This document shows positions 63 to 20,610 of a stretch of DNA of 20,795 nt, piece after piece. Each line of letters opens with the position of its first letter. The stretch's first letter is position 1. The stretch spans positions 1 to 20,795 of the forward strand of contig NZER01000487.1 in the NCBI GenBank assembly GCA_002690445.1, given 5' to 3'. The DNA is from Candidatus Pacearchaeota archaeon (GTDB lineage Archaea; Nanoarchaeota; Nanoarchaeia; Pacearchaeales; GW2011-AR1). The position numbers and the translations under genes are program-made. A model generated the notes under the pieces. It saw only the letters and a program-made list of their open reading frames with translations, was not told where the DNA came from and did not search any database.

Positions 63-85
63 CTCATGTGAATTTTTCACAGGAG
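63..85 (+). repeat. Palindromic intergenic element, copy 1
   Basis: CTCATGTGA, a 5-nt ATTTT centre, then TCACAGGAG. The arms pair at 8 of 9 positions. This is the leftmost of six copies. It lies in the G/T-rich leader about 125 nt before the first ORF, so unlike most other copies it is not next to a recognised start codon. Confidence 0.75.
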
Positions 86-174
86 TGGGTGGGGGTGGTA
101 GTAGTAGTGGGAGTAGTCATAGTAAGAAAAGTAGGTAGACTAGGACATATTTGGGGATGTTTTAGGTAGGAGAC

Positions 175-203
175 TTGACAAATGGGTTGGAATTGGTTAT
201 ATT
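175..203 (+). promoter_or_regulatory. Sigma-70-type promoter
   Basis: A perfect -35 hexamer TTGACA (175-180) is followed by exactly 17 nt and then TATATT (198-203), which matches the TATAAT -10 box at 5 of 6 positions. This is the best promoter-like sequence I can find in the window and it points into the late operon. A start about 7 nt past the -10 would fall near position 210, exactly on the ATG of the first ORF. That transcript would have little or no leader. The surrounding leader is purine- and T-rich and otherwise has no gene. Confidence 0.65.
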
Positions 204-209
204 CGGGTT

Positions 210-470
210 ATGAGGATGGATCCGCCGATTAAACGGATTTGGCAGCTCAGCGCAGGAATCCGTGAGGGCATTGCTGCCGGCAAAACCGACGCGTTGATTG
301 CGGATGAGTTGGATTGCACTATGGACGTGGTGCAGAAGGTCCGTGCCGGCAAGATTATGAGGCCGGGGGGTGGAGGGGTCTGCACCTGGGCCGAAAGCGA
401 AGCGAGTGAACCTGCAGGGGCTGGAGTAACGCATCGCAAGGTCGCCGCCAGCCCGTCCTTAGTGGAGTAG
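210..470 (+). CDS. Small HTH-like protein upstream of the terminase
   Basis: An 86-residue ORF (ATG 210, or ATG 216). Residues about 15-50 read as a helix-turn-helix of the resolvase or small-terminase kind: a helix, then DALIADELDCT, then a second helix containing VVQKVRAGK. The last 35 residues are Gly/Ala/Ser rich and look poorly conserved. No Shine-Dalgarno sequence precedes either ATG, and the promoter at 175-203 predicts a transcript starting at about 210, so translation might be leaderless. The position just before terS suggests a DNA-binding role in packaging or late control, but that is inference. It could be a duplicated or decayed terminase N-terminus. Confidence 0.5.
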   Translation: MRMDPPIKRIWQLSAGIREGIAAGKTDALIADELDCTMDVVQKVRAGKIMRPGGGGVCTWAESEASEPAGAGVTHRKVAASPSLVE

Positions 471-489
471 AGCTTCATACCCCTGCAGG
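411..489. repeat. Long-range inverted repeat before the small terminase gene
   Basis: CCTGCAGGGG at 411-420 is the exact reverse complement of CCCCTGCAGG at 480-489. Both contain the palindrome CCTGCAGG. Inside the interval, GGGCTGG (418-424) can also pair with CCAGCCC (448-454), so two mutually exclusive foldings exist. It spans the end of the 86-aa ORF and the leader of terS, a place where packaging-recognition sites (pac or cos) are often found. No function is shown by the sequence alone. Confidence 0.5.
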
Positions 490-507
490 TCGTAGGAGCG
501 TAGTGAG

Positions 508-1257
508 ATGAGACAGCCAAAGGCTAATGGGAGTGGGAACGGCAGGGGTCGGCCGCAGGAATACTCTACGGCGCTTTTGCTGGAGGCGTTGGCGGTGAGT
601 CGGACGGTGGAAGAGGCGGCGAGTAAGGCAGGGTGTAGTGGGGCTCTGATTCATACGCGTGGGAGAGATGATTTTAAAATCCGGCAAGCCATTAAGAAGC
701 AGAAGGAAGAGCGGGAGGACGAAATAGCCCGGTCGATTATTCAACATAGGGGGATCCTAAGTAAGGTCGCGACGGAGTTAGACTTAGGTAGCGCAGCTTC
801 AGTCCGTTATCACATCACTAGATCTCCGGCGCTGCAACAAGTGTTTGCGGATGCCCGTGATAGGATGATCGATACGGCGCAAGATAATATCTTCACTGCA
901 GTGGACGCCGGAGACCTTACGTATTCATGGAAGCTGCTGCAGACCCTAGGCAAGGATTTGGGTTATACTGAACGACGTGAGGTGGACACGACAGTGACCC
1001 ACACGCTTGACGACACCGACACCGGCAGTTTGGTCGAGATGCTGAATCGCCTAGCGGAGAGTCATCCCGAAGCAGTGGAAGCAGAATTCAGCGTGTTAGG
1101 TGATGAGGATAGGGCATTGTTAAGTGGGGCGCTGGAGCGAGAGGGTGGTGGAGACGAGCGGGGTGGGGCAGGGCCTGCACTTGGGGATGGAATAGGGCAG
1201 GGGCCTGGAGTGCATACGTCTGAGGGGCCTGCATCCGATGGAGCCGTGTCCGCATGA
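508..1257 (+). CDS. terS: Terminase small subunit
   Basis: A 249-aa protein that would recognise phage DNA and load it onto the large terminase for packaging. The N-terminus is basic and Gly/Arg rich. A first HTH-like unit covers residues about 22-52, and a second about 75-105 (SKVATELDLGSAASVRYHIT). A segment at about 118-160 with WKLLQTLGKDLGY resembles the oligomerisation region of small terminases that end in a GY-E-R motif. The Gly/Glu/Asp-rich C-terminus is low complexity. The start is supported by AGGAG at 494-498, nine bases before the ATG. The stop overlaps the terL start by 4 nt (ATGA), the usual coupling of the two subunits. The assignment rests on the HTHs, this motif and synteny. 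Confidence 0.85.
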   Translation: MRQPKANGSGNGRGRPQEYSTALLLEALAVSRTVEEAASKAGCSGALIHTRGRDDFKIRQAIKKQKEEREDEIARSIIQHRGILSKVATELDLGSAASVRYHITRSPALQQVFADARDRMIDTAQDNIFTAVDAGDLTYSWKLLQTLGKDLGYTERREVDTTVTHTLDDTDTGSLVEMLNRLAESHPEAVEAEFSVLGDEDRALLSGALEREGGGDERGGAGPALGDGIGQGPGVHTSEGPASDGAVSA

Positions 1258-2879
1258 CTGTCGCTGCGATTAATCCAGCTGTCCAGCCCGCAGCGGCGCG
1301 GGAGCCTAAGGAAGTATTGGAAACCGTACTTGGGCGGGAGCGGGCGAGGGTAGGGTTGATAGATTATGCGAAGTTCGTGGATGATGTTTATGAGCCTTAT
1401 GCGGTGCATCGGTATATAGCAAGGAAGCTAGAAGCGGTCGAGGCTGGTCTGCTACGCAGGCTGGCTATTTTTGTGCCGCCGGCAGTCGGCAAGTCCCGCA
1501 TTGCTAGTGAGATCTTTCCGACTTGGGTGATGGGCCGGAATCCTAATTTCGAAATAATCGAAGCGTCGTATAATAAGGACAAGGCTGCGGAGTTCGGCGG
1601 AGTGTCGAGGGATATTATTAAGAGCGATGCGTATAAGATCCTATTCCCGAAGACACAGATATCGACTACGGCAGCAGCGGCGGATGCGTGGAAGACCACT
1701 ACCGGCGGATCGTATAAGGCCAGCGGGACTGCCGGAGGTATTATAGGTTTCCACGCACATATCGCTATTATTGACGATCCATTCAAAAACTATGCCGAAG
1801 CCGCTAGCCTGCAGAACCGGCGAGACGTCTGGGACTGGTACTCCGGCGTGCTGCTGAATAGGCTGCGTTCGTACAAAGGCGACGTCGGTGCTGTGATCCT
1901 GATCATGCAGCGCTGGCATGATGATGACCTTGGAGGACGATTGGAGAAGCTTCATGACCAAGGTGAAGAAGAATGGGACATTATCTCGATTCCAAGCATT
2001 GCGGAAGAGCATGATGCGCTTGGTCGGGAAGTCGGAGAAGCCTTGTTGCCGGACGGACCTAACCGGCGACCCATTGAAGAACTCCACGCTATCAGAGCCC
2101 GGAACCCAGGCCTTTTTATCGCTCTGCATCAGCAGAAGCCTGTAAGCGATGAAGGGGATATGTTCAAGCCCAGTTGGCTGATGGAATATGAGCCGGGGCA
2201 ACTGCCGGAAGCATTGACGCATTACGGGACTAGTGATTGGGCACTGACCAAGGGTAGTGGAAACTACACCGTCCATATGGTCTTTGGAGTGGATGCAGTT
2301 GGGCATATCTGGATCAAGACACTGTATCGCCAACAGGTGGATATAATCGAAGGCACTGATGCAGCGTGCCAACTGATGCTTGAATTCCAGCCGTTGAAGT
2401 GGTTCAGTGAGCGGGTGATGCTGCAGAAGGCGATTGGTCCAGTCTTACGGAAGCGCAAAGCGGAACTTGGAGCATGGACAGTGTTAGAGGAAGTAAGCGT
2501 AGTGGGATTCGGTGGGAAGGATTCGCCGGATCGTGCCGGCGCGTTTGCCGGCGCGTGCCAGGCAGGTTATGTGCACATTCCCTCCGGCGCGCCCTGGACC
2601 GAAGAATTCAAGTTTGAACTCTCTCGGTTCCCGAACGGTAAGTATGACGACATAGTTGATGCGTGCGCGCTCGTAGGTATGAACATTAATAAGTTGCGTG
2701 GCATGAAGCCGGCGCCGATTGAGCCTTCCGGCGTGCCGGTCGTGACTCCGACCATATACACTTTCGACCACCTCATGGGGCAGAGGAAACTACAACGCTA
2801 CGGCATCCGGCCCCGTAAAGAAAGTATAGTAGTCCCGTTCGAAGAAGGTCCGCAATTCCCGGACACTGTCGTTGACTAA
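1254..2879 (+). CDS. terL: Terminase large subunit (ATPase and nuclease)
   Basis: A 541-aa packaging motor, the usual size for the family. The ATPase domain carries a Walker A-like P-loop PPAVGKS at residues 75-81 and a Walker B AIIDD at 171-175. The coupling segment ILIMQRWHDDDL lies at about 215-226. The C-terminal RNase H-like nuclease shows D328 in HYGTSDWAL, an acidic residue at about E386, and the final acidic cluster DDIVDA at 465-470. It pumps DNA into the procapsid through the portal and cuts concatemers. It overlaps terS by 4 nt. Its closest architectural match is the terminase_6 / psiM2-ORF9-like group found in P22- and BPP-1-type phages. All catalytic motifs appear intact. Confidence 0.96.
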   Translation: MTVAAINPAVQPAAAREPKEVLETVLGRERARVGLIDYAKFVDDVYEPYAVHRYIARKLEAVEAGLLRRLAIFVPPAVGKSRIASEIFPTWVMGRNPNFEIIEASYNKDKAAEFGGVSRDIIKSDAYKILFPKTQISTTAAAADAWKTTTGGSYKASGTAGGIIGFHAHIAIIDDPFKNYAEAASLQNRRDVWDWYSGVLLNRLRSYKGDVGAVILIMQRWHDDDLGGRLEKLHDQGEEEWDIISIPSIAEEHDALGREVGEALLPDGPNRRPIEELHAIRARNPGLFIALHQQKPVSDEGDMFKPSWLMEYEPGQLPEALTHYGTSDWALTKGSGNYTVHMVFGVDAVGHIWIKTLYRQQVDIIEGTDAACQLMLEFQPLKWFSERVMLQKAIGPVLRKRKAELGAWTVLEEVSVVGFGGKDSPDRAGAFAGACQAGYVHIPSGAPWTEEFKFELSRFPNGKYDDIVDACALVGMNINKLRGMKPAPIEPSGVPVVTPTIYTFDHLMGQRKLQRYGIRPRKESIVVPFEEGPQFPDTVVD

Positions 2880-2902
2880 CTCATGTGAAATAATCACATA
2901 AG
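2880..2902 (+). repeat. Palindromic intergenic element, copy 2
   Basis: CTCATGTGA, an AATAA centre, then TCACATAAG, with 8 of 9 arm positions pairing. It fills the whole gap between the terL stop and the HNH start: the next base after the element is the A of the ATG. No separate Shine-Dalgarno is present, so the 3' arm itself would occupy the ribosome-binding position. Confidence 0.85.
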
Positions 2903-3394
2903 ATGACTATAGACACTAAAAACGTTCTCCCTTATATGTCCGATAGCGATGTAGAATACTTCTGGAGCGGTATTCAGAAATCGGATGACTTAGATGCCTG
3001 CTGGGAATGGAGCAGGGCTCTATCCTCCTATGGATATGGAGTGTTGCGTATACAAGATGGAACGTGGACATCCCATCGAATAGCTTATATGCTGGAGTAT
3101 GGAGATATGCCTAACGGGGTGTATATACTTCATAAATGTGATAACCCTCCCTGTTGCAATCCTTCTCATCTGGAGCTAGGAAGTCACTCTGATAATCAGC
3201 ACGATCTGTATCATAAGAATCCCGATGAGGTAAGGGGTCATGCTAAACTTACTTTAAATCAGGTGAGGGAGATTAGAAGAAGGTATACTGCTGCACAGGG
3301 GCGTAGAGGGATTCAAGTAGATCTGGCTAGGGAATATAAAGTAACTAAGAACAATATAGGTCGTATCATTCATAATCAGACGTGGGTGGAATAG
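2903..3394 (+). CDS. Free-standing HNH (homing-type) endonuclease
   Basis: A 163-aa protein with a classic HNH_3 core: the SHRIAY segment at 57-62, then HKCDNPPCCNPSHL at 77-90, holding the catalytic histidine and the metal-binding Asp, Asn and His positions. The N-terminal CWEWSRALSSYGYG is typical of this family. Residues 114-160 form a helix-turn-helix-like DNA-binding tail (VDLAREYKVTKNNIGRII). Such enzymes cut DNA at a specific site and spread by recombination. It sits between terL and portal, a common insertion site. Codons are richer in AGA, ATA and TAT than in terL, suggesting separate acquisition. A role in packaging nicking, known for some HNH proteins beside terminases, is possible. 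Confidence 0.92.
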   Translation: MTIDTKNVLPYMSDSDVEYFWSGIQKSDDLDACWEWSRALSSYGYGVLRIQDGTWTSHRIAYMLEYGDMPNGVYILHKCDNPPCCNPSHLELGSHSDNQHDLYHKNPDEVRGHAKLTLNQVREIRRRYTAAQGRRGIQVDLAREYKVTKNNIGRIIHNQTWVE

Positions 3395-3399
3395 ACCTT

Positions 3400-5526: not shown

Positions 5527-5693
5527 TGCCAGGCGAAGCATCTTATAGTCCCGCTTTTGGGAGTGTGCTTTCCAGCACTCATCTTCACACTCCATTCAAG
5601 AAACGTAAGCCGAGGGGGAGGAAGAAGAAACCGCTTCGGCGGGCGGCGCTGAAGGTTTCGAGTGCTACTAGAAGGTCATTGAGGAGGAAATAA
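5526..5693 (+). CDS. Very basic 55-residue protein
   Basis: A small ORF joined to both neighbours by one-base TAATG overlaps: it starts inside the portal stop and its own stop overlaps the next ATG. That perfect coupling is the main reason to believe it. Of 55 residues, 17 are Lys or Arg and only one is acidic; the C-terminal 31 residues hold nearly all the charge (KKRKPRGRKKK, then LRRK at the end). It is too short and too basic for a membrane or enzyme role. A nucleic-acid-binding or virion-packaged peptide is plausible. I do not recognise a family. Confidence 0.75.
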   Translation: MPGEASYSPAFGSVLSSTHLHTPFKKRKPRGRKKKPLRRAALKVSSATRRSLRRK

Positions 5694-6331: not shown

Positions 6332-7358
6332 TCCAACTTTGAGCGAAGCATCCGCTGCAAGTCTGCAGCCTAAGGAAGCTGGTGCTGACAATACTAGAGT
6401 GGAGCTGGAACGTAGGCTCCAGCGCGGGCAGCTACTCACGCGGGCCGAGCTGGATCTTGCCGCAGCGAAGCAGTGGATTCAGCCTTGGATCGACTCGTTT
6501 AAGATCGCCGGCCAAGCCTTGGCACAGTTGAAGCAGCGGGCGAGTGAGATGGAACGGAAGGTTGTAGGGGCTGGGCTGGAGCTTGGGGGCCAAGCTATGG
6601 AAGCGTGGCCGCCGAGTAGTGGAGCCGGCAAAGTGGCCTTGGCGGTCCCTGGCAGATTCGCGGGAATGAAGGGGTTCTTGAAGGGTGGGCAGAAGACCGG
6701 CAAGGAGATGATGGGAGACCTGGGAGTGGGTGATGCGGTTAAGAGTGCTAAGCCTAAGTTCCATATGATTGAAGGGCCGGAGGAGCTAGCAAAAAATGCT
6801 CCGAAGAACTACAAAGTCGCTCCTGGTGCTGAAGGCCTGGTAGGAAAGACTGCAAAGGCAAGCGATGCGACGAAGGAGAGTATTAGGGCTGTCGTCGCTG
6901 CCAAGAAAGTTGGCGGCTCTAAGGACGCCATCGCTATTGACCTTCCTCAAACGTCTTTCGATCTAGATGAGGTGTTGGAGACTACGTCTTCGGCGTATTG
7001 GGGAGACTTGTGGAATGCTATGAAGGCTGCGGATGTATCCAAATTGTCTAAGGAGTCTACATTACTGTTTGAAAGAGCGCTTAGAACTCTTGAAAAAGGT
7101 ATTATTTATGGAAGGGGAGAAACTGGAGGGCTCTTAGATGTGGATACAGTTATGAGTCTAGGACTTTCTATGAAGCCCTTGTATATACGTAAGAAGAAGG
7201 CATTAGATATCTTACGTAAGCATAGTGTATCTCCAGATACTGATATGACAGTAGATGGAGCTACTGGAGCTTCGGTAAAGGGCACTTCCTTTTTGAGTGA
7301 GTTAGGGGATAAAGATACTTATTCTGTAAAAGATTTATTCGAATGGTTAGGTTATTGA
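6270..7358 (+). CDS. Unrecognised 362-residue protein of the head region
   Basis: No known domain is evident. The N-terminal third is helical and Ala/Glu/Gln rich (VELERRLQRGQLLTRAELDLAAAKQW), followed by a Gly-rich amphipathic stretch (about 95-155). The C-terminal half is mixed and ends in DLFEWLGY. The start is uncertain: ATG 6270 would overlap the previous gene by 62 nt, whereas GTG 6324 (8-nt overlap, AGAGGG upstream) or TTG 6339 fit the tight packing better. The stop overlaps the next ATG (TGATG). From about 7020 the DNA becomes more AT-rich than the first half, hinting at a mosaic gene. An internal or ejected virion protein is possible from its position. Confidence 0.75.
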   Translation: MRCQGMRGRSGEEGVLRRVVSPTLSEASAASLQPKEAGADNTRVELERRLQRGQLLTRAELDLAAAKQWIQPWIDSFKIAGQALAQLKQRASEMERKVVGAGLELGGQAMEAWPPSSGAGKVALAVPGRFAGMKGFLKGGQKTGKEMMGDLGVGDAVKSAKPKFHMIEGPEELAKNAPKNYKVAPGAEGLVGKTAKASDATKESIRAVVAAKKVGGSKDAIAIDLPQTSFDLDEVLETTSSAYWGDLWNAMKAADVSKLSKESTLLFERALRTLEKGIIYGRGETGGLLDVDTVMSLGLSMKPLYIRKKKALDILRKHSVSPDTDMTVDGATGASVKGTSFLSELGDKDTYSVKDLFEWLGY

Positions 7359-7783
7359 TGCCTACTTACACATTCCAATGTATGAAGTGTGGAGGCTACG
7401 CAGACATGGTTCGCACTGTGGATGAGCGGAACAATACTGTGGCTTGCCGGTGCGGCACGCTGATGCAGCGGGTGCCGGAGCGGTTCGATGCGAGGGTATT
7501 CACACCGCACTTCGATGAGGCCTTAGGCGAGGATCTGCACTCATTCGCCGACAAGCGGCGTAGTATGCAGGAACTCGGTGTGGTGGAGACCGGCGATCGA
7601 GTAGGCGGCGCGAGGAACTTTGATAAGCATTCAGACGACTACATCACGAAACGACCGCTGCAAGGCATTAGGCGGAAGCAGGCTGACAAGAACTATGATC
7701 CAGTGGTTGAAGTGCTGGACGATAAGGACAAGGTCGTGGAGCGGAAGCGCTTCAGCGACTTGCCGGATTACGATCCAACTTAG
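7358..7783 (+). CDS. FmdB-like zinc-ribbon protein
   Basis: A 141-aa protein. The start at 7358 is fixed by the MPTYTFQC opening, which matches the FmdB-type zinc ribbon (MPxYxYxC), and by the TGATG overlap with the upstream stop. Zinc ligands are C8 and C11 (CMKC) and C30 and C32 (ACRCG), the second pair being CxC rather than the usual CxxC. The rest is charged and ends with VVERKRFSDLPDYD. FmdB was named as a putative regulator in Methylophilus, and related ribbons are frequent in phage structural regions with no proven role. It immediately precedes the scaffold. Confidence 0.8.
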   Translation: MPTYTFQCMKCGGYADMVRTVDERNNTVACRCGTLMQRVPERFDARVFTPHFDEALGEDLHSFADKRRSMQELGVVETGDRVGGARNFDKHSDDYITKRPLQGIRRKQADKNYDPVVEVLDDKDKVVERKRFSDLPDYDPT

Positions 7784-7801
7784 GTGATTTTTTCACATGA
7801 G
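7779..7801 (+). repeat. Palindromic intergenic element, copy 3
   Basis: CTTAGGTGA, a TTTTT centre, then TCACATGAG. The left arm is the most diverged of the six and overlaps the stop codon of the zinc-ribbon gene; the right arm is intact. It is followed directly by a second small palindrome, GCGTTG-G-CAACGC (7801-7813). The scaffold ATG lies 41 nt downstream, the longest gap apart from copy 1. Confidence 0.75.
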
Positions 7802-7842
7802 CGTTGGCAACGCACTAATATCCTATCTGGCGGAGGGATAAG

Positions 7843-8766
7843 ATGTCTGAAGTAGTTGATGGACGAACGGACCAACTGGTTGAGGATACTTTCGCTGCTA
7901 TGATGGAAGAGAATCCAGTCGACCATGAGGCCGTAATGGATGGCATAGTGACTGAAGGGGGCGAGGACGCTGATAAGGATGCACAGCCGGCGGCGGCTGC
8001 GGATTCTGACGGAGTCGTCCATGTTGGTGAAGCTTCGCCCCGCGAAGGCACTGACACTGTGCTGGCAAGGCTGGAAGAAAGCGATCCTGCCGCGCATGAA
8101 ATAGTGCGTGGAATGCAGCAGAATATGACCAGGATGCAGAACGAGTGGAATGACTTGAGGGATAGCACGCTGGATACCCGACAGGAACTCCTGGATCGGC
8201 TGGAGATTATGGGGTCCGAGGATGAAGGGGAACCAGAGCCTGATCCTTTGGAAACTCAGGGGATTACTGAAGAGCATCTCAATATGTTCAAGACTATGGC
8301 AGAGCACTTGGATTACGTCCCACGCTCTGAGTTGGAGTCTCGAGACGTCATGGCTTCGGCTGAGGACTACACTAATACGATGTTGACGAAGGGTGTAGAA
8401 GAGTTCGGTGAGGATTTTGGTACCCTTAACGAAGATGGGACAGTGAGTGTGAAACCGGAGGTCCAAGAACGGTTGACTAGTCGGCTGGAAAGCCTGACTG
8501 ATGCTTCGAAGGGAATTACGGCTTATGAGTTGTTCAAGTTGGAATTCGAGCCGAAACCAGAACCCGCATCTGAGGCGGCAGCGGTGGGGGAGGGTGGGGC
8601 GGTGCCTGACGCGCCGCGCACGACTCCGAGTCCTAATGCGAACGTCTTGCGCCGTAGTACTGGCAGCGGGCAGCCAGTGAAGATTTACGATCCCTCAAGG
8701 GGGGACACTCCAGAAGACGTCATTGAACGCGCGTTCACGCTGACGCGGCGGGAGTTAGGTGTTTAA
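7843..8766 (+). CDS. Capsid scaffolding protein (probable)
   Basis: A 307-aa, strongly acidic protein directly before the major capsid gene, the usual place for a scaffold that templates procapsid assembly and then leaves. Residues 1-75 are Asp/Glu/Ala rich and likely disordered. About 75-125 forms a coiled coil (GMQQNMTRMQNEWNDLRDSTL). About 240-285 is Pro/Ala/Glu rich linker, and the extreme C-terminus is a short charged helix (DVIERAFTLTRREL) of the kind that contacts the coat protein. No protease motif is seen. GGAGGG at 7832-7837 is a strong Shine-Dalgarno, but it could pair with TATCC at 7819-7823. The call rests on composition, coil and synteny rather than a sequence signature. Confidence 0.75.
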   Translation: MSEVVDGRTDQLVEDTFAAMMEENPVDHEAVMDGIVTEGGEDADKDAQPAAAADSDGVVHVGEASPREGTDTVLARLEESDPAAHEIVRGMQQNMTRMQNEWNDLRDSTLDTRQELLDRLEIMGSEDEGEPEPDPLETQGITEEHLNMFKTMAEHLDYVPRSELESRDVMASAEDYTNTMLTKGVEEFGEDFGTLNEDGTVSVKPEVQERLTSRLESLTDASKGITAYELFKLEFEPKPEPASEAAAVGEGGAVPDAPRTTPSPNANVLRRSTGSGQPVKIYDPSRGDTPEDVIERAFTLTRRELGV

Positions 8767-8771
8767 ATATA

Positions 8772-8791
8772 AAAGAGACGGGAGTCTCTTT
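8772..8791 (+). promoter_or_regulatory. Perfect hairpin in the leader of the major capsid gene
   Basis: AAAGAGAC (8772-8779), a GGGA loop, then GTCTCTTT (8784-8791) form an 8-bp perfect stem six nt after the scaffold stop. The capsid Shine-Dalgarno (GAGAAGG, 8797-8803) follows, leaving it unpaired. No U-tract follows, so intrinsic termination is unlikely. A 5' stabilising stem or an RNA processing site that lets the capsid gene be expressed above the scaffold is the more likely reading. Confidence 0.6.
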
Positions 8792-10573: not shown

Positions 10574-10600
10574 GAGGAGGGCATGAGGCTAGCCCTCCTC
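10574..10600 (+). terminator. GC-rich hairpin after the capsid block (possible weak terminator)
   Basis: GAGGAGGGC (10574-10582) and GCCCTCCTC (10592-10600) form a perfect 9-bp stem with a 9-nt loop. A run of six T residues appears only eight nt later (10609-10614), inside palindromic element copy 4. That spacing is poor for intrinsic termination, so it may be a partial terminator, an attenuator or a stem that hides the AGGAGG at 10576-10581. Confidence 0.45.
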
Positions 10601-10622
10601 TGCTGTGATTTTTTCACACGAG
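10600..10622 (+). repeat. Palindromic intergenic element, copy 4
   Basis: CTGCTGTGA, a TTTTT centre, then TCACACGAG. The inner five base pairs and the outer two pair. It lies between the capsid-block hairpin and the sulfotransferase start, 7 nt upstream of that ATG, and its GAGGG tail doubles as the Shine-Dalgarno. Confidence 0.85.
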
Positions 10623-10629
10623 GGCTGGC

Positions 10630-11307
10630 ATGAAGAATGTATTAGTGATGGGAGCGCCTAGAACAGGGACGTCCTTGGTTACAAAGGTCTTATCAGAACA
10701 TGGGTGGGATATAGGGGATCGATGCAGGAATAGTCTGGCGCATAGGGATCCTTCTTGTTATGAAGATCCTACAATGGTCCAGACGAATTATCAGATCTTT
10801 AGCAGCAACGAGGCACATCCAATGATGCCTTGTGATCATGTAAATGCAGCGATTAGTGCGGAAGCGTTAGAGATTCTTACAGAAGACAAGAAAGAGCCTT
10901 GGGTGATTAAGGACCCTTCGTTGAGTGTGACTTATCCATTTTGGAGGCAGCATTTTCCTGGCTGTCATGTAGTAGCGACTTTGAGGCATCCAGTGCCGGC
11001 AATTGAATCTATGATGAAGCGCAGCCACTTCCCGCACCACCGCTTTCCGCAAGTATGGTGGAGGTACACGCATAATGTGTTTGCTTGGGGAGAGATCTAC
11101 AACAACGTCTCATGGGTGCATTTTCCGACACTGCAAGGAATGGAATCTGCTGTATCCGACTCTGGTGGACAGTACGATAGTACTATCTATGATAGAGTTT
11201 TTGATAGCACTTTGGTTCATGGGACTCCTCAGGAGATGGAAGGTAACTATAGTTATATGGAACATTTGTACTCTAAAATCTTTACGACTAAAATATCTAA
11301 GCGATAG
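10630..11307 (+). CDS. Sulfotransferase-family protein
   Basis: A 225-aa protein with the two signatures of PAPS-dependent sulfotransferases. The 5'-phosphosulfate loop GAPRTGTS is at residues 8-15, and the 3'-phosphate-binding segment LRHPVPAIES is at 118-127. A VIKDP segment at 93-97 is also usual in the sulfotransferase_3-like group. These enzymes move a sulfuryl group from PAPS to a hydroxyl of a sugar, lipid or protein. The length is near the family minimum. It is the first gene of a four-gene modification cassette followed by a glycosyltransferase, so a glycan acceptor is likely. Codon use is more AT-rich at the 5' end than in the capsid genes. Confidence 0.85.
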   Translation: MKNVLVMGAPRTGTSLVTKVLSEHGWDIGDRCRNSLAHRDPSCYEDPTMVQTNYQIFSSNEAHPMMPCDHVNAAISAEALEILTEDKKEPWVIKDPSLSVTYPFWRQHFPGCHVVATLRHPVPAIESMMKRSHFPHHRFPQVWWRYTHNVFAWGEIYNNVSWVHFPTLQGMESAVSDSGGQYDSTIYDRVFDSTLVHGTPQEMEGNYSYMEHLYSKIFTTKISKR

Positions 11308-11321
11308 AAAGGCTGGCACGT

Positions 11322-12470
11322 ATGAGTGATGAAGAGAAAGTTCTAGAAGGACCTGAGTACGAGATCCCTGATGATGTTAAGATTCTCATAGGGACTCCGA
11401 ATTATACGAATGAGTTCTCAAGCGAAGTCCACGCTAATCATGTGCATTTGAGTGTGGAGTGGTCGAAGTGGGGGCTTGACTTTAATCACATGATTATAGG
11501 CAGGACTTTCGTGCACTTTGCTCGTTCCCAGATGTGTGATATGACAGTTAAGGGCAAGTGGAGTCATCTGCTTTGGCTGGATGATGATGCGGTGATAGAT
11601 GAGCATGTGCTGCCTAAGATGCTTGCAAGGGATTTGGATGTGGTAATTGCGCCTTATCCGATGCGCCGGCCCGCGTATGAGATCGGTATCTTGAGATCGA
11701 CGGCTTATAGCTGTCTTGACTGCGGCTGGTATGGGTTTATTGTATTCTCGTATGCGGAGGACAAGGTAGTGTTTCTTGATAGCCTGAAGCCCGGCGATAT
11801 AGACGAACATGGGCCTAGAGGCTGTCCTCCGAATGATGATGAGGTGCATTGTCCTAAATGCGAGTCTGAGAACCTGTGGAGGGATTTTCATAATCACAAG
11901 TCTTATAAGAATGTGTCGATCTTTCACAATGTCTCGAAGGGTGGGCTGATGGAAGTGGATGGAGGCGGGACGCACTGTATGTTGGTAAAGACTGGAGTGT
12001 TCGAGCACCAGGGAGAAAAGGGCGGGCCGGATACTATGCCGCCTGAAGTACAGAAGATTGTGGATCGTATGAGGGATAGTTTGAGTCCTGAGGAAGTGGA
12101 GCATTATAATCATTACTTGGGGGATTTGCCGGACGAGACGCAGTCGTTCAAACAAGAGGATAAGGCCGGCAAGCCTTACTTCCTGATGCCCAAACGCGGC
12201 ACTGAAGATATGTACTGGTGTTATAGGGCTAGGCGTAAAGGCCTTAAAATCTACATGGACAATGATGTCTTCGCATCTCATGTAGGCTTCCCGCAAGTCA
12301 TTACAAAGGGCTTTAGAGAGAGAATCGAAAGCCAGGGCTTGCATAAGAGTAAGGACAAGCAATTCGGTGGGAATCCTAATACAGTGGAGATCATGGACCA
12401 AAAAGGTGATGGAAGTCTTCCACTACGGCAGGCTGGTGTTCATGCGCGTAAGGCTAGTTCGTTGATATGA
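11322..12470 (+). CDS. GT-A type glycosyltransferase with zinc-ribbon insert
   Basis: A 382-aa protein. ILIGTPNYTN (21-30) begins a nucleotide-sugar Rossmann-like fold. WLDDDA (85-90) supplies the metal-binding DxD. TEDMYWCYRARRKGLKIY (294-311) is the catalytic E-D plus helix of GT2-like enzymes, and H320 is a likely third metal ligand. Between them lie two Cys pairs, C131/C134 (CLDC) and C177/C180 (CPKC), which look like an inserted zinc ribbon, uncommon in this family. It would transfer a sugar from an activated nucleotide donor; donor and acceptor are unknown. The Shine-Dalgarno is GAAAGG, nine bases upstream. The stop overlaps the next ATG by 4 nt. Confidence 0.85.
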   Translation: MSDEEKVLEGPEYEIPDDVKILIGTPNYTNEFSSEVHANHVHLSVEWSKWGLDFNHMIIGRTFVHFARSQMCDMTVKGKWSHLLWLDDDAVIDEHVLPKMLARDLDVVIAPYPMRRPAYEIGILRSTAYSCLDCGWYGFIVFSYAEDKVVFLDSLKPGDIDEHGPRGCPPNDDEVHCPKCESENLWRDFHNHKSYKNVSIFHNVSKGGLMEVDGGGTHCMLVKTGVFEHQGEKGGPDTMPPEVQKIVDRMRDSLSPEEVEHYNHYLGDLPDETQSFKQEDKAGKPYFLMPKRGTEDMYWCYRARRKGLKIYMDNDVFASHVGFPQVITKGFRERIESQGLHKSKDKQFGGNPNTVEIMDQKGDGSLPLRQAGVHARKASSLI

Positions 12471-12745
12471 ATAGTGATGAGGCTGTAACAAGTCGTTATG
12501 ATACTAGCCCTTTGGTCAAGTATAATGTTCTGCGATGTAAGTCGTGCAGAAGAGGCTTGGTCGTGATGGGAGTAGACGCCCCTGATAAGTATTGTAAAAA
12601 GTGTGGGTCAAGGGGACCTTGGACGAACGTATTAGGTCCTATCTCCCTTATAGAGACTCTGAGTATTTTACGTAGGACAAGAGGACAGTTAATGCTGGTT
12701 AACCCTGGCGGGCGTTTAGAGAGTTTACTCAGGAGGGTTTTGTAG
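12467..12745 (+). CDS. Small zinc-ribbon protein
   Basis: A 92-aa protein with four cysteines placed as a zinc ribbon: C24 and C27 (CKSC), then C43 and C46 (CKKC). The rest is basic, ending LESLLRRVL. Its start overlaps the glycosyltransferase stop (ATGA) and its stop is one base from the methyltransferase start, so it is a tightly coupled member of the cassette. It may bind one of these enzymes, a glycan or nucleic acid; nothing decides between them. Confidence 0.8.
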   Translation: MNSDEAVTSRYDTSPLVKYNVLRCKSCRRGLVVMGVDAPDKYCKKCGSRGPWTNVLGPISLIETLSILRRTRGQLMLVNPGGRLESLLRRVL

Positions 12746-12746
12746 A

Positions 12747-13568
12747 GTGCCTAAGAATGGAGTGTTTACGAAAGAAGAGATGGTTTTATCAAGATCTTAT
12801 ATGAGCAAGTGTAAGCCTCCGTCTATGGAGGCTAAGAATGGTACGAGGGTGAAGCTATGGGCAGACGTAGATGCTGAGACTCCTGTGGCAGAAGGCGGGA
12901 CACTGAAAGTTGAGCCTAATGCGCTGGTTTGTCGTGGGGATAGGGGAGATAAGGAGTATAGGGTTATGCCTATATTTCCGGCGCGCGCTATAGAAATTCA
13001 GCATCTTAAATTATGGAGTGTCGATGAGGGGTCGGCTTCGGTGCTTACGAGTATGGTATATAGTCTCCAGCCTGAATTAGTGGTGGAAGTTGGAACTAAC
13101 TGGGGCCGTAGTACTAGAGCTTTAGCTGAGGGATTGTCTATGAATGGTAAAGGTCACTTGTGGACTGTGGATATGATAGATTATGATATTCACAATAGCG
13201 GAGCATTGCTAGAAGATCAGAAGGACTATGTAACGCAGATTGTAGGTAGCACTCCTGACGTATATACGAATGATGAGACGTTAAGAGATATGAAGGGAAT
13301 TGAGTTAGCCTTCTTGGATGGAGAGCATACAGCGGAGGGAGTGGAACAGGACCTGGAGTATGTAGACGCTCATAGAGCTATGGAGTGCTTAGTTATAGTG
13401 GATAACGCTAGGGATGATCAGTGGGATACCGAAGCGGAGTTCTTTAATACTTATGATAAGTATCCTCATATCAACATTCCCACTATGTGTGGGTTTGAGT
13501 TGATATGGATGGCGGATAAAAGCGTGCAACAGCGAAAGGGAGTTTGGAATGGCAATTCATGCGCCTAA
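12747..13568 (+). CDS. Class I SAM-dependent methyltransferase (methyltransferase_24-like)
   Basis: A 273-aa protein starting at GTG 12747, with AGGAGGG at 12731-12737 giving nine-base spacing. SAM-binding motif I is LVVEVGTNWGRST (111-123). The acidic second-strand residue is D142 (LWTVDMID). IELAFLDGEHTAEGVEQDL (185-203) is the characteristic metal-site strand of the methyltransferase_24 family, which methylates small molecules and sugar hydroxyls. About 100 residues precede the fold and are unassigned. It ends the modification cassette and overlaps the next structural gene by 20 nt, so that gene's Shine-Dalgarno lies inside this coding sequence. Confidence 0.85.
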   Translation: MPKNGVFTKEEMVLSRSYMSKCKPPSMEAKNGTRVKLWADVDAETPVAEGGTLKVEPNALVCRGDRGDKEYRVMPIFPARAIEIQHLKLWSVDEGSASVLTSMVYSLQPELVVEVGTNWGRSTRALAEGLSMNGKGHLWTVDMIDYDIHNSGALLEDQKDYVTQIVGSTPDVYTNDETLRDMKGIELAFLDGEHTAEGVEQDLEYVDAHRAMECLVIVDNARDDQWDTEAEFFNTYDKYPHINIPTMCGFELIWMADKSVQQRKGVWNGNSCA

Positions 13569-13929
13569 CGCGAGAACTGCAGCAGCCTTCAAGGGCGAGA
13601 ATGATATATCCAACTCGGAGCATTATCAGAATGATGCAGTGGATGAGACAGATGTGGAAGTGCGAGCTGGTGCAGTCGTGTTGACTGGATATGAGTTGCA
13701 TAACACGACTGGCTCAGACGCCTTCCTACAGCTATTTGATGCTCTGGCCGCCAACGTAACAGTCGGAACGACTGCGCCTGATTACGTTATTACGCTTGCG
13801 GCGAATGCAGCTCGGGGTCGATCGTTTACGAAGCCGTTGGAGTTCAAGAACGGCCTGACGATTGCCGGGACTACGGCTTGGGCCGGCAACACTGGCGCTG
13901 CCATCGACGTATCGTTGGACTTTGCTTAA
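13549..13929 (+). CDS. Small structural protein, unrecognised
   Basis: A 126-aa protein translated from within the 3' end of the methyltransferase (AAAGGGAG at 13535-13541). It is rich in Ala, Thr, Asn and Gly with strand-like segments (VRAGAVVLTGYELHNTTGSDAFLQLFDA, GLTIAGTTAWAG, AIDVSLDFA). The pattern suggests a beta-rich particle protein, similar in flavour to the cement-like genes before the cassette. The exact role (decoration or connector) cannot be told. Confidence 0.75.
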   Translation: MAIHAPNARTAAAFKGENDISNSEHYQNDAVDETDVEVRAGAVVLTGYELHNTTGSDAFLQLFDALAANVTVGTTAPDYVITLAANAARGRSFTKPLEFKNGLTIAGTTAWAGNTGAAIDVSLDFA

Positions 13930-13952
13930 CTGATGTGAAATAATCACACGAG
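13930..13952 (+). repeat. Palindromic intergenic element, copy 5
   Basis: CTGATGTGA, an AATAA centre, then TCACACGAG. It starts right after the stop of the 126-aa structural gene and ends 11 nt before ATG 13964. The GAGGGGAG that overlaps its 3' end is the Shine-Dalgarno of the next gene. Confidence 0.88.
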
Positions 13953-13963
13953 GGGAGTAGCTA

Positions 13964-14605
13964 ATGCCTGTAACGATTGATATGGAAACTCAGGTCGATC
14001 CTTCCGATCATGATCTGGAGAATGGAGTGGATCTAGTCCTGGATGATGCGGCGCGAGGGCAGGTCGTGATGACTAAGTTCATTACGACTAATCCTAATCG
14101 CTATGGATTCCGGCCCGAAGGGGAGTGGATCGACCAGGTCACCACTGACGTAGGTGGCGGGAAGAAGAGCGCTAGGATTCTGACTACTGGCCTGGACGGA
14201 CAACCAAGGTCTGTGAATATAGACGATGGCCTTATCATAGACATGGTCGGAACACTTACTCGCGTTGTCGGCTTGCTTCCTGGCCGTCCTCCACTAGACG
14301 AGTCGGAGATAGATCTCTATATCGAGCAGACTGACGAGCCGGTGCCTTTATTCCAGCAGTGGGACTTTAGGGTGACACGGGTTCGGAAGACTAACGGCCC
14401 GGAAGGCCGATTGAGTCTGACTCGTTCCGAGGAACAAAAGCGTTTGAAGGCCCAGACCGAGATGCTGGATACACAGGCCGAGATGATGGAAGCGTTCCGG
14501 CAGATGTTTTCTGCTGGGGCGCAGCAACTTAATTCCGATGGCGAGCTGGCACCTAAGGCCCAGGCCGCGCTGAATGAAGGAGTAAAGGCACTCAAAAAGG
14601 GATAA
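13964..14605 (+). CDS. Virion protein of unknown role
   Basis: A 213-aa protein. The first 145 residues are acidic and strand-rich (QVVMTKFITTNPNRYGF, GLIIDMVGTLTRVVGLLPGRPP). A coiled-coil or helical tail follows at about 155-190 (EEQKRLKAQTEMLDTQAEMMEAFRQM), then Ala/Lys-rich helix to KALKKG. No family is recognised. The place between head and adaptor genes, and a helical C-terminus, would fit a head-completion or connector role. Confidence 0.75.
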   Translation: MPVTIDMETQVDPSDHDLENGVDLVLDDAARGQVVMTKFITTNPNRYGFRPEGEWIDQVTTDVGGGKKSARILTTGLDGQPRSVNIDDGLIIDMVGTLTRVVGLLPGRPPLDESEIDLYIEQTDEPVPLFQQWDFRVTRVRKTNGPEGRLSLTRSEEQKRLKAQTEMLDTQAEMMEAFRQMFSAGAQQLNSDGELAPKAQAALNEGVKALKKG

Positions 14606-14612
14606 GCCTACC

Positions 14613-15614: not shown

Positions 15615-15844
15615 AAACTGTAAAACTTTCACAAGATATGTCGGAATTAGTGGCTATCGCGGCGATTAAGTCTACTCCCTTGTCTATCTTGATCGTTCCT
15701 AAGATACAAGTCGATGATGAAGGAGGATTCACATGGACTGGGGAAGCGGATATTCGATGCAAGGGGATAGTGCCCAATCCTAAAGGCCGTGCCTTCACTA
15801 TCGCGGTCTTGGACCTAGTTGCAGACCAATTGAGGCAAGGATGA
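15611..15844 (+). CDS. Small 77-residue protein between adaptor and nozzle
   Basis: An ORF overlapping both neighbours by 4 nt (ATGA at each end), which strongly supports translation. It opens with KTVKLSQDMSELVAIAAI, then alternates strands (LSILIVPKIQVDDEGGFTWTGEADIRCKG) and ends in a short helix LVADQLRQG. It has one cysteine and no transmembrane segment. I do not recognise a family; a minor tail or assembly factor is possible. Confidence 0.7.
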   Translation: MKTVKLSQDMSELVAIAAIKSTPLSILIVPKIQVDDEGGFTWTGEADIRCKGIVPNPKGRAFTIAVLDLVADQLRQG

Positions 15845-17397: not shown

Positions 17398-17401
17398 ACG
17401 C

Positions 17402-19447
17402 ATGGCGACTATAACTGTTCCTGACACTGACTTGCCGGATCCTGGCGATGATATGGATGCGGAGCAGGTAAGGGATTGGATAACTAATGTAAGAACCTTC
17501 CTCGAGGGGACGAATATTGACGAAGCTAATGTAGACTTAACTGGCTCAGATGGTGTTGTAGGTAAGTCTACGGCGCAGACTATTACAGGGTTGAAGAGCT
17601 TTGAGAATACTGCGGCAGCCGCTGGCGGGATGCGGGAGGTGGCGCAGTTTGGTCTAGATCCATCAAGTGGAACCGCAGCGGGTAATGATGGAGCACGGAT
17701 TGTCTTCTATGGAGACGATGATGGGGGAGCTGAGACTGACTTCGCTCAGATAGATGTAGTGTTTTCTGATGTGAGTGCAGGGAATGAAGATGCTCAGTTT
17801 AAGGTAAATACAATGGTCAGTGGGACTTTGAGGAACATCTCGACTGCCTCAGATGGAACCCACACAATGTATGCTTACCAAGCCGCTGCGGCCTCGATTC
17901 GAACTATGTTGGTGCTGGATTGGGATCCTTATGACGGATCTAACCTGACTGACAACTCGTCTGGTATAGGCATCAACTTTTCTATGCCGGACTCTGCAGA
18001 TAATCAGGATACGTTCGCTTCTCTAGATGTCCTATGCGTAGACGACACGTCCGGGAGTGAAGATGGAGAGTTTAGCTTCAAAGTGATGGTAGGAGGGACA
18101 GAGACTGAAGTGTTGACGCTTCAGTCAGGACTGACCACAACAGGGACAGTGTTGAATCTCTCTACTGGAGAGACGACAGTTGTAGACGGGGATATTCTAG
18201 GAAGGATCGATTTTCAAGCTCCGCTTGAAGCCTCTGGGACGGATGCTATACTGGTATCAGCAAGTATATGGGCTGAAGCGGATGCTACATTTGATGCCTC
18301 GACGAATACAACAAGTCTGGTTTTTGCCGCAGGCACTTCAGAAGCTGCTGCTGCTCAGATGCGGATGAATACTACGGATTTGTCTCCGGAGACCAGTGAT
18401 GGATTAGCACTAGGTACTACGGCTTTAATGTGGGCAGATGTATTCTTGGCTAGCGGGGCGGTTGTCAACTGGAACAATGGTGATGTTACTCTTACGCATA
18501 GCGCTAATACGATTACGGTTGCTGGAGGAACCTGGGCTACGGCAGCGTTGACGGCTACTACGATTACAGGATCTGGAGTTCTTTCTATTGATGATATTAC
18601 GGAGTCTACATCAACTACTACAGGCTCTATTCATACAGATGGCGGACTTGGCGTAGCCGGCGATATCTATGCTGGGGATGACATCTTCCTAGCCTCCGGC
18701 GCGGTGTGGAATTTCAATGCAGGAGATGTGACTGTTACCCACAGCGCCAACACGCTAACGATAGCTGGGGGAGATGTGGTCGCTAATACAATTACTGGCA
18801 GCTCACCTGCTGGACCCGCGATCATTGGAGATGAAAACGCTACAGCGACAAACCCCACATTGATTCCAAACAAGGCTGAAGAGGACACTGGCATTGGTTG
18901 GGCCGCAGCAGATACCTTAACAATGGTTACAGGCGGCACAGAGCGGATGAGAATTGACTCTGCGGGCAAGGTTGGAATCAATAAGACGCCAGAAGCCTGG
19001 ACCTCCTTGTTCGATGTGCTCCAGATTGGTGGAAATGGATCAATCTTCTCTACTGCCACGGAGGCGGCAGGGAACAACATGTCGATAGGTGTAAATACCT
19101 ATTACGATGGCTCCTGGAAATACATATCCACTGACGAGGCCTCGTATTATCAGCAGGGCAACGGAGCGCATTATTGGGCATACGCTGTCTCAGATACGGC
19201 TGATACGGTTGTTTCATGGCTTCCAGTCCTGCAAACTACGGCACTGGGGAGCACCCTGATAGGCAATGGCGGCATTGCCACCAATTCAACAGACGGATTC
19301 CCTTACATACCTTCAATGGCCGGTGCACCATCTGGCACCCCCACGGACCACAGTAATCGCTCTGCGATAGTGCATGATACAACCAATAATAGACTGTATG
19401 TATACGACCATGTATCCAACGCATGGCAATACGCTTCTCTGACATAG
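17402..19447 (+). CDS. Tail fibre / receptor-binding protein
   Basis: A 681-aa protein with a helical N-terminal anchor ([21 protein letters not shown], about 14-34), then long Thr/Ser/Gly/Ala/Asp-rich beta repeats. Two 30-residue units are nearly the same: [20 protein letters not shown] and [20 protein letters not shown], each followed by SANT and an AGG ending. The segment [19 protein letters not shown] (about 510-530) and the C-terminal [20 protein letters not shown] are commonplace in trimeric phage fibres and their tip domains. It would recognise the host receptor. From about 18,790 base composition shifts (more ACC, GCC and C-ending codons), suggesting that the C-terminal tip was exchanged. 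GAGGGA precedes the start. Confidence 0.8.
18440..18772 (+). repeat. Two 90-bp repeat units inside the fibre gene
   Basis: Units at 18440-18529 and 18683-18772 encode nearly the same 30 residues (LASGAV...GDVT.THSANT..AGG) separated by 51 codons. Similarity is stronger in protein than DNA because many third positions differ, so the duplication is old or purged of identity. Such repeats form the beta shaft of fibres. Confidence 0.7.
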
Positions 19448-19458
19448 GAAACAAGACA

Positions 19459-19653
19459 ATGGCCGCAACGATCAATTTATCAAGCTCGCGACAAGCCTCG
19501 ATGGATGCCTACGCCAAGGCCAATGGGACCACTTCCACGGCGCTGATTCAGAAGTGGGCTGAAGGCGAGGCTGACGCTCTGGCTGAGAATGATGTGAATA
19601 GTTGGTGGAACAGCAAAACGCTCGCAGAGAAAGAGGCAATCAAGGCTGCATGA
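19459..19653 (+). CDS. Small 64-residue protein after the tail fibre
   Basis: The start at ATG 19459 has AGGA nine bases before it and lies 12 nt after the fibre stop; an upstream ATG at 19423 would overlap the fibre gene and lacks support. The protein is helical and acidic (MAATINLSSSRQASMDAYAKANG, then KWAEGEADALAENDVNSWWN, KTLAEKEAIKAA). Third-position C is as frequent as in the fibre tip just upstream. It could be a fibre assembly factor or co-inherited with the tip domain, but I recognise no family. Confidence 0.65.
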   Translation: MAATINLSSSRQASMDAYAKANGTTSTALIQKWAEGEADALAENDVNSWWNSKTLAEKEAIKAA

Positions 19654-19706
19654 ACCGGCACCCCAGACGATTCTTGGCTGGTGCAACTATTCAAGTGGAT
19701 ACTTAA

Positions 19707-19889
19707 ATGACTCCGCAGGATACAAAAGCCAAGAAGACCCGGCAAAACACTCGTGACCAGACTACTATCATCTGCACTAGTGTTATGGCTATTGTTTCAG
19801 CTATGTTCCCAGACATTCCTGATGGAGCTACAGAAGGAATGACAGGCTTGTTAATCGTTATGACTCATAGGGCCCATCATGGCATCTGA
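19707..19889 (+). CDS. Small membrane protein, holin candidate
   Basis: A 60-aa ORF. Basic, charged N-terminus (KAKKTRQNTRDQ), then a hydrophobic helix TIICTSVMAIVSAMF (about 20-34), a Pro/Asp turn, and a second hydrophobic segment GMTGLLIVM (about 44-52). Two short membrane spans with a positive N-tail fit a class II holin layout, but hydrophobic stretches are short. Its Shine-Dalgarno is weak. It overlaps the next gene by 11 nt. A decayed ORF remains possible. Confidence 0.5.
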   Translation: MTPQDTKAKKTRQNTRDQTTIICTSVMAIVSAMFPDIPDGATEGMTGLLIVMTHRAHHGI

Positions 19890-20103
19890 TGATATAGGAA
19901 ACAGTTGGGAGAAATATCAGAAACTGGTGTTGAGTTCACTGGACCGCCATAATGATCTCTTGGAAAAACTCAGGGATGAGATCATTGGGCTGAGAAGTGA
20001 TATGATAGCCCTTAAGGTCAAAGTTGCCCTTGTGGGCATAGGGACCGGGACGGTGGGAGGCGGGTCTATGGTCTATCTAATAAAGTTTATAGGCGGGGAA
20101 TGA
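19879..20103 (+). CDS. XhlA-like holin / lysis protein candidate
   Basis: A 74-aa protein with a coiled-coil helix at about 10-45 (heptad-like LVLSSLDRHNDLLEKLRDEI, then LRSDMIALKVKV) and a single C-terminal transmembrane stretch at about 48-70 (ALVGIGTGTVGGGSMVYLIKFI). This layout, soluble coil then C-terminal span, matches the haemolysin XhlA-type holin family. It may act with the 60-aa hydrophobic protein just upstream, whose end it overlaps. AGGG about seven bases before the ATG supports the start. Confidence 0.65.
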   Translation: MASDDIGNSWEKYQKLVLSSLDRHNDLLEKLRDEIIGLRSDMIALKVKVALVGIGTGTVGGGSMVYLIKFIGGE

Positions 20104-20145
20104 TCTCGTATTTTATAAGCACCCCCTTAAGGAAAGGTGGGCACT

Positions 20146-20577
20146 GTGAAGTGGATGCTTTTGTTCCTAATCCCCTTGTTTGCCTGCTCCTCCAATCCAG
20201 TGGCTTCAGTCGAGGAGGTGGACATTCTTCATGGGATTGTAAGCACTCGAGATTCCAGCGTCAGGACTGCAGTCAAGGACCATGATGCTATTGTAAGATT
20301 CTCCTTCCACAGTGGAGATTGGAGATTTACTCGGAAGTGGGAAAGCGGGTTTCAGGACATGGAGCAGGAGGGGACTTATGATTTTGCGTATTGCACAGAC
20401 AAGTGGACCTGTACGTATTTCTTTGAGAGCGAAGATGGTAAACGTTATGATTATAGAACAGGGTGGCATACAATAGAAAGCGCTGTGTGGTATGCTACTG
20501 TTACTGTGGGAAAGCGTCATGTGCTGATGGGAAGGACTATTTATGATATAGTAGTGGATCCCGCCGCGGTTGAGTAA
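20146..20577 (+). CDS. Phage-encoded lipoprotein
   Basis: A 143-aa protein. GTG 20146 is preferred over the in-frame GTG 20137 because AGGAAAGG (20130-20137) then has good spacing and the product begins MKWMLLFLIPLFAC, a signal peptide ending in a lipobox (LFAC, Cys at residue 14). The +2 residue is Ser, the outer-membrane rule in Gram-negative hosts. The mature part has a two-Cys segment (YCTDKWTCTYFF), several aromatic strands and no proline-rich Rz1-like composition, so I do not call it a spanin. It lies after holin-like genes; superinfection exclusion by a surface lipoprotein is a possible role. Confidence 0.7.
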   Translation: MKWMLLFLIPLFACSSNPVASVEEVDILHGIVSTRDSSVRTAVKDHDAIVRFSFHSGDWRFTRKWESGFQDMEQEGTYDFAYCTDKWTCTYFFESEDGKRYDYRTGWHTIESAVWYATVTVGKRHVLMGRTIYDIVVDPAAVE

Positions 20578-20587
20578 GCTGTATTAA

Positions 20588-20610
20588 CTGATGTGATGTT
20601 TTCACACGAG
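20588..20610 (+). repeat. Palindromic intergenic element, copy 6
   Basis: CTGATGTGA, a TGTTT centre, then TCACACGAG. It lies 11 nt upstream of ATG 20622, the same spacing as copy 5, and AGAGG at its 3' end provides the Shine-Dalgarno of the next gene. Confidence 0.88.

Follow-up and report, generated by a model that had tools for sequence, protein, structure and literature searches.

What reads the short palindromes that recur between the genes of this stretch of viral DNA, and what purpose would they serve? The stretch, which we call the window, is a virus record of 20,795 bases (contig NZER01000487.1 of assembly GCA_002690445.1, filed under Candidatus Pacearchaeota archaeon) that encodes a terminase, a capsid and further virion genes, and the element is a 23-bp near-palindrome made of a 9-nt arm, a 5-nt A/T-rich centre and a second 9-nt arm. 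Sequence comparisons make it very likely that this site is recognised by a phage-encoded fusion of a ParB-like protein with a DNA methyltransferase (ParB-MTase), and we consider it probable that the copies are parS-like docking sites for this protein, dispersed over the genome. The protein type is already known, and the site would be of the parS, NBS and OB kind.

The window contains six copies, at the coordinates claimed in the initial annotation of this DNA:

Copy 1, 63..85, unstranded: CTCATGTGA-ATTTT-TCACAGGAG, about 420 nt upstream of ORF 508-1257.
Copy 2, 2880..2902, unstranded: CTCATGTGA-AATAA-TCACATAAG, right after the stop of the terminase large subunit and 0 nt before ORF 2903-3394 (HNH).
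Copy 3, 7779..7801, unstranded: CTTAGGTGA-TTTTT-TCACATGAG, with one arm mismatch, 41 nt before ORF 7843-8766 and upstream of the major capsid gene.
Copy 4, 10600..10622, unstranded: CTGCTGTGA-TTTTT-TCACACGAG, 7 nt before ORF 10630-11307 and two ORFs past the capsid gene.
Copy 5, 13930..13952, unstranded: CTGATGTGA-AATAA-TCACACGAG, right after the stop of ORF 13549-13929 and 11 nt before ORF 13964-14605.
Copy 6, 20588..20610, unstranded: CTGATGTGA-TGTTT-TCACACGAG, 4 or 11 nt, by choice of ATG, before a start close to the window end.

The core is as near to invariant as had been claimed, TGTGA-N5-TCACA being exact in five of the six copies and changed at one base in copy 3, and the distances to start codons also stand, so that copies 2 to 6 all lie within 41 nt of one. 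The description of all copies as intergenic holds apart from copy 3, which overlaps the last bases of ORF 7343-7783 and has its stop codon inside the site, while their shared orientation carries little meaning because the site is a near palindrome. ORF 508-1257, downstream of copy 1, has no family match and is a small-terminase candidate from its position only.

The repeat does not arise by chance. In an arm-agnostic scan of the window (5-nt arms, A/T-rich centre, at most one mismatch) TGTGA was the top arm with eight matches, whereas the best arm in each of 30 Markov-resampled controls reached at most four; the two additional matches, at 15615 and 15968, are without the CT/AG ends. A 23-mer finder returned six sites in the window versus at most two in 10 resampled controls, and together these comparisons rule out a chance origin. 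A loose count that allowed two mismatches and required nothing else gave 11 matches against a mean of 8.45 expected, which is not above chance, so the motif stands out through its near-exact core, its A/T centre and its CT..AG ends. The frequency in coding DNA, to which the initial annotation had tied the fate of the motif, is likewise in its favour and not at chance level. A first scan using 6-nt arms returned nothing, and a scan of IMG/VR with the full window consensus gave no match.

The relatives of the window are distant: megablast found no near relative in the phage collection searched, the best identity of the terminase there is 39.7%, and in the top-ranked record the capsid match covers 92% of the protein at 28.9% identity. 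Relatives (the best 80 of 131 were kept for the terminase) retain the 9+5+9 frame with CT...AG ends, and their arms, named here by the five letters next to the centre, are TGTGA, GTAAC, GTTGA, GGGGA, GTCCC and others. These letters shift in concert within each genome and are largely uniform in it, a pattern that demands a DNA-binding protein evolving together with them. When 19 contigs are tabulated against six arm types, the result is mostly diagonal, with a window row of 6,0,0,0,0,0 and off-diagonal entries of 1-2; three contigs (G008, L007 and L033) show no clear arm type of their own.

The place of the sites is often kept together with their shape. Upstream of the homologue of ORF 508-1257, a site with other arms lies about 290-520 nt away in L096 (2201), L098 (6162) and L095 (10378), and the terminase-stop junction carries a site in L011-L018 (TGTGA), in L096, L098 and L101 (GTAAC), in L102 (GTTGA) and in L050 (GTTCC). 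The junction of copy 3 has a GTAAC-arm site at L097 98, L099 2070, L101 11341 and L006 1340; counterparts of copy 4 past the capsid gene are found at L097 2859, L102 7863 and L006 4181; and the junction of copy 5 is occupied at L140 14215 (TGTGA, one mismatch), L102 11650 (GTTGA, one mismatch) and L007 6939 (TGAAC). Weak or lost copies are seen in L103 and L097, and junction 15841-17397/17402 carries a site in L097, L099 and L102 and none in the window. Conservation at the same gene junctions, which the initial annotation had suggested looking for, is therefore a property of the relatives, though with altered letters that it could not foresee. Two unusual forms were encountered in this set. 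At 3545-3567 of L095, near the capsid-upstream junction, a chimeric site combines one TGTGA-type with one GGGGA-type arm and is perhaps an evolutionary intermediate, and the terminase relative L033 has a longer palindrome around CTACCATTATGTTAG in six copies between 2640 and 11580, several of them with outer CTTA..TAAG.

Two genomes indicate where the reader of the site is encoded. The 33-kb contig G009 (loci L139 and L140) has TGTGA sites across its early and virion regions, shares the arms of the window, possesses homologous virion genes at 37-61% identity and encodes a ParB-MTase. The Desulfofustis phage LS06-2018-MD01 (L145, OP947158.1; 44,443 bases, circular record), found via its DNA polymerase, contains nine GTCCC-type copies like CTATGTCCC-AAATT-GGGACATAG, some of them among its unrelated virion genes; at up to five mismatches it yields 10 sites versus at most one for permuted half-sites. 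By tblastn, this phage has only early genes in common with the phage family of the window (exonuclease, Sak4-like ATPase, ParB-methylase, polymerase, primase and small ORFs), and its virion genes match Microcystis phage Mel-JY34 instead. Since it shares the early genes only and yet carries the sites, the reader is probably encoded in the early module. Our first regulator candidate, a set of early ORFs of about 172 aa, was rejected because only two of the five are clearly alike; ParB-MTase apart, the shared early proteins scanned belong to replication and recombination families or uncharacterised families, or have no match.

The ParB-MTase of this early set, also encoded in G009 and other loci, is a ParB/Noc-like fusion in which a ParB_N domain and a helix-turn-helix (HTH) are followed by an N6_N4 methyltransferase. 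In a profile of the fusion the N-terminal part matches solved ParB, Noc and KorB chains (KorB 8qa8) and the remainder matches DNA methylases. An 18-row alignment shows A67, G68, R70, R71, E104, N105 and R108 to be invariant in the ParB part, and D250, P251, F410, G412, S413 and G414 in the methylase, with P252 and Y253 nearly so; we take these to be the nucleotide boxes and the DPPY and FxGSG motifs. The ParB-methylase of LS06-2018-MD01 has DFPY where the other five proteins aligned have DPPY. The predicted structure (mean pLDDT 83.6) has helices at 148-155 and 159-174 that can be read as the HTH, with 159-174 as the putative recognition helix, and Foldseek returned N6/N4 methylases first, followed by ParB, Noc and KorB chains at modest TM-scores of 0.37-0.51 (by target).

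A single residue of this helix follows the letters of the arms. The test used 40 loci reduced to 29 representatives, and the residue in question directly precedes the conserved Asp in the recognition helix (position 164 in L139:6062-7438; 163 in trimmed numbering). It is Arg in 9/9 representatives whose arm base next to the centre is C and in 0/19 of those in which this base is A, L163 being indeterminate. Three of the nine Arg-C cases (L120, L134 and L193) form one GTAAC clade, and the fragment L120 is identical to L134 over 270 columns; leaving it out gives 8/8. The column is the sole perfect separator of C and A arms among all columns of ParB-MTase, PolA, primase, exonuclease and Sak4, the next-best scores being 0.84 in the same protein and 0.93, 0.86, 0.88 and 0.93 respectively in the other four; in four small early proteins the top scores are 0.82-0.88, a fifth such protein, present in 5/29 loci, having been left out. 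In a tree that leaves out the HTH, Arg/non-Arg requires five changes, at least three of them forced by well-supported branches, and C/A also requires five, of which four coincide with the Arg branches among 56 branches in all. A simple alignment of the GKS-R stretch suggests that the key column corresponds to N178 of Caulobacter ParB, which the available portion of one study lists as a parS-contacting residue (PMC7383237).

Sites of this kind also occur in phages selected without regard to them. IMG/VR loci picked solely for encoding ParB-MTase (the best 80 of 130 were retained) frequently have repeated 23-mers of their own with CT..AG ends and GTTCA, GTCCA, GTTGA, TGCAA, GTTAC, GGTAA, GATAC or GTAAA arms, and some have repeated 23-mers without these ends (GAGCGGTCA, GTCTGTTCA). 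Arms were accepted automatically in 43/89 ParB-MTase loci, of which L156, L180 and L198 were later dropped for false or ambiguous arms. An arm scan of the named phages Pam1, ppBjS10J-1, ctMlz233 and Mel-JY34 gave no enriched arm. Two loci are peculiar in other ways: the ParB-methylase locus L154 has a repeated palindrome whose centre seems to be 6 rather than 5 nt, and L252 (ON073792.1), a ParB match in Aphanizomenon phage Yong-DA, appears plasmid-like, its annotation comprising many polysaccharide genes together with ParA/ParB and no evident virion genes.

A number of observations weigh against docking of ParB-MTase as the role of these sites. The window fragment contains no ParB-methylase gene (none among the 89 ParB-MTase loci), and the claim for it rests on G009 because of the same arms and the homologous virion genes found there. 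Arms were kept in just 40/89 loci, and in 27/44 of those of at least 12 kb; among five bacterial-bin loci, three have no site clear of the null at spacing 5, L254 is borderline, and the site of L256 resembles that of L163, which has a look-alike helix. The distant homologues Microcystis phage Mel-JY34 and ctMlz233 (22-23% identity) have no detectable site, and an arm-only scan of the A/T-rich LS06-2018-MD01 did not single out GTCCC (9 matches, null maximum 9). The residue-base rule fits 14/21 held-out two-copy families, many of the fits coming from clades already used, and GTTCA arms are found with a key residue of Q, D or E, which shows that the residue code is incomplete. Arm similarity is correlated about equally with the HTH (0.31) and the ParB_N domain (0.30). 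The mutual-information z value of ParB-MTase, 8.5, is similar to those of the controls PolA (7.8), primase (9.3) and Sak4 (9.8), so phylogeny explains part of the signal and the mutual-information ranking is insufficient on its own.

The arrangement of the sites along the genomes bears on what the protein might do with them. The context set comprises 158 accepted sites on 17 contigs with at most three arm mismatches, except for G008 (at most two) and G027 (at most four); G008 at up to five mismatches has 13 sites versus a control mean of 10.6, hardly above, and just its five sites with two or fewer mismatches were used. By simple ORF calls, 120/158 sites are intergenic where 24 are expected, and their flanking genes are ++ in 49 cases, -- in 48, convergent (+-) in nine and -+ in eight, with six at piece ends. 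Copies occur on average every 2-9 kb, the 141 gaps having a median of 3,789 bases and exceeding 10 kb in three instances. Sites are spaced more evenly than random gene junctions (combined p 2.7e-15, a value that is too optimistic because the contigs are partly related; not significant singly for G002, G003, G008, G034 and G033, the last at 0.053). Contig G033 also has two site doublets exactly 40 bp apart, at 14336/14376 and 43317/43357.

We propose that a ParB-MTase dimer would read the two arms, whose centres are 10 bp or one helical turn apart, with the methyltransferase replacing the usual C-terminal dimerisation domain behind the ParB_N nucleotide-switch domain and the ParB/Noc-type HTH. 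If it behaves like ParB, Noc and KorB, each copy would be an entry point for the protein as an NTP-dependent sliding clamp, and its methyltransferase would travel with it over the DNA between copies, so that the phage would mark and/or regulate its own genome. That the sites are evenly spaced, disregard the direction of genes and occur in both halves of the genome fits a sliding clamp better than promoters or translation signals, although for the further step, that dispersed loading serves spread over the genome, we see the balance as even. Because the arm letters are lineage-private, the ParB-MTase of each lineage would find only its own type of genome. More tentatively, and against somewhat unfavourable odds, a clamp bearing a methyltransferase from evenly spaced, lineage-private sites could write a self mark, in which self is distinguished from non-self by address and not by the sequence specificity of the enzyme.

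Other explanations must be set beside docking by ParB-MTase, and the initial annotation had itself offered an operator for a phage regulator, an RNA hairpin and a recombination boundary. The first of these came nearest, in that a DNA-binding protein of the phage appears to read the dyad, ParB-MTase being the best candidate, and a version of it survives as KorB-like control of transcription: ParB-MTase or its ParB part would bind operators at the heads of gene blocks and silence or time the genes, with methylation secondary or limited to the sites. We regard this as possible but rather unlikely. Most intergenic sites do lie between co-directional genes, window copies 2 to 6 stand close to starts, and in the GTAAC clade the capsid-upstream copy comes directly past a -10-like TATGAT box (by eye), such a box being present at some junctions only; KorB, moreover, is a CTP clamp capable of long-distance repression according to the accessible part of one account (PMC11790492). 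Nevertheless, nine intergenic sites fall between convergent genes, no -10-like box at a fixed distance could be recognised by eye at the window copies, and operon heads do not demand even spacing. We think it improbable that the enzyme methylates the site itself, to which the ParB part would merely bring it, and so sets an epigenetic on/off mark, for example in packaging or in the timing of replication. The fusion does join a methyltransferase to the candidate site reader, and the sites hold modifiable A and C, but identity of the methyltransferase domain is uncorrelated with arm similarity (rho 0.06), so the catalytic part is seemingly not tuned to the arms, and the arms are so different that they are unlikely to share an internal target. 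A little less probable again is that another early protein, for example a small one of unknown function, reads the site and that the ParB-MTase correlation reflects shared ancestry. The equally high z values of the control proteins would allow this, and tblastn finds homologues of L145:7738-8121 in 27/29 representatives and of L139:1213-1635 in 19/29, but the perfect column and the parallel changes on the tree belong to the ParB-MTase recognition helix only, and the remaining shared early proteins scanned match replication, recombination or uncharacterised families, or none.

The other alternatives we consider very unlikely. A centromere-like role in a ParABS system of a plasmid-like prophage would agree with a ParB/Noc-like reader and several sites per genome, but the ParA family PF13614 was found in 0/12 records (possibly incomplete) against 14/14 control genomes. 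A boundary promoting module exchange, to which we attach the same low probability, is not supported as the primary role: cargo does vary beside some copies (the HNH gene after copy 2, and genes 10630-13568 between copies 4 and 5), but such a boundary should have common letters across lineages, where the arms are largely lineage-private. The least likely of all is an RNA hairpin close to the ribosome-binding site, through which translation or the processing of mRNA would be controlled. In its favour are the inverted repeat and the frequent position of sites shortly before start codons; at 94 co-directional sites, however, the mismatched pairs on the mRNA strand are G-U in 20 cases, A-C in 49 and others in 70, and this excess of A-C over G-U is the opposite of what a hairpin would leave. 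Sites between convergent genes (9/120) also disfavour it, a hairpin needs no uniform arm letters within a genome, and Rfam gave no match in the window at gathering scores.

Comparison with known dispersed sites helps to place the element. The CRP site is TGTGA-N6-TCACA and spans 16 bp; the spacer of 5 noted in the initial annotation, together with the other letters used by relatives, excludes it here. The stoperators of cluster A mycobacteriophages are dispersed, intergenic and thought to co-evolve with a phage protein, but they are asymmetric 13-bp repressor sites, whereas we find palindromes and a ParB-MTase. The likeness to the start-associated sequences (SAS) and extended SAS (ESAS) of cluster K mycobacteriophages is, as had been proposed, one of dispersed short repeats beside gene starts with a different motif: in the excerpts at hand, SAS is the 13-bp asymmetric GGGATAGGAGCCC and ESAS has 17-bp arms with a variable spacer (PMC3203893), and the fixed 9+5+9 palindrome is unaccompanied by SAS.

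The closest parallels are thus with ParB-type systems. ParB-parS and Noc-NBS sites occur in multiple copies per replicon. They are palindromic, as are the present sites, in which 1109/1332 arm pairs are Watson-Crick over 148 unique sites; they are read by a ParB_N plus HTH protein, as would be the case here, and a few residues of the DNA-binding domain shift their specificity, according to the portion of the work available (PMC7383237). The present system differs in having a methyltransferase after the HTH in place of a dimerisation domain, no ParA found, phage genomes as its setting, a 23-bp site whose arms are spaced one turn apart around a 5-nt A/T centre, and arm letters that vary greatly between lineages. 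KorB-OB of plasmid RK2 is similar in its ParB-type clamp (KorB 8qa8 matches the profile) and in the several sites on one small replicon, although the OB sites differ from the 9+5+9 sites described here. A reference cited in PMC11790492 has 12 KorB binding sites in its title, and in the part of PMC11790492 available KorB works with KorA and is not described as carrying a methyltransferase. ParB-N6/N4 methyltransferase fusions are reported to be frequent in phages and without an established function, the accessible sections naming no cognate DNA site (PMC12704722), and a passage of PMC5512222 mentions a ParB-methylase from Bacillus cereus whose nicking is non-specific. In the open-licence literature searched, we found no dispersed, lineage-private site for such fusions.

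Three further features of the window may be recorded. It begins with a run of 42 G (positions 1-42), probably a sequencing or assembly artefact, and the next 130 or so bases also look G-rich. The HNH endonuclease ORF 2903-3394 separates the site at the terminase end from the next conserved gene and has no tblastn homologue in the relatives compared, and the block 10630-13568 (sulfotransferase-like, phrog_1574 and methyltransferase-like genes) is cargo that is similarly without homologues there.

In summary, this family of phages shows that a repeat can hold its place and shape while its letters change, and that such repeats are missed by plain motif searches. The sites provide a predicted target for many ParB-MTase fusions, a first rule that links residue to base, and a natural series of protein-site pairs for the study of how recognition changes. 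Should the clamp reading hold, these phages would have an unusual way to methylate their own genomes only.

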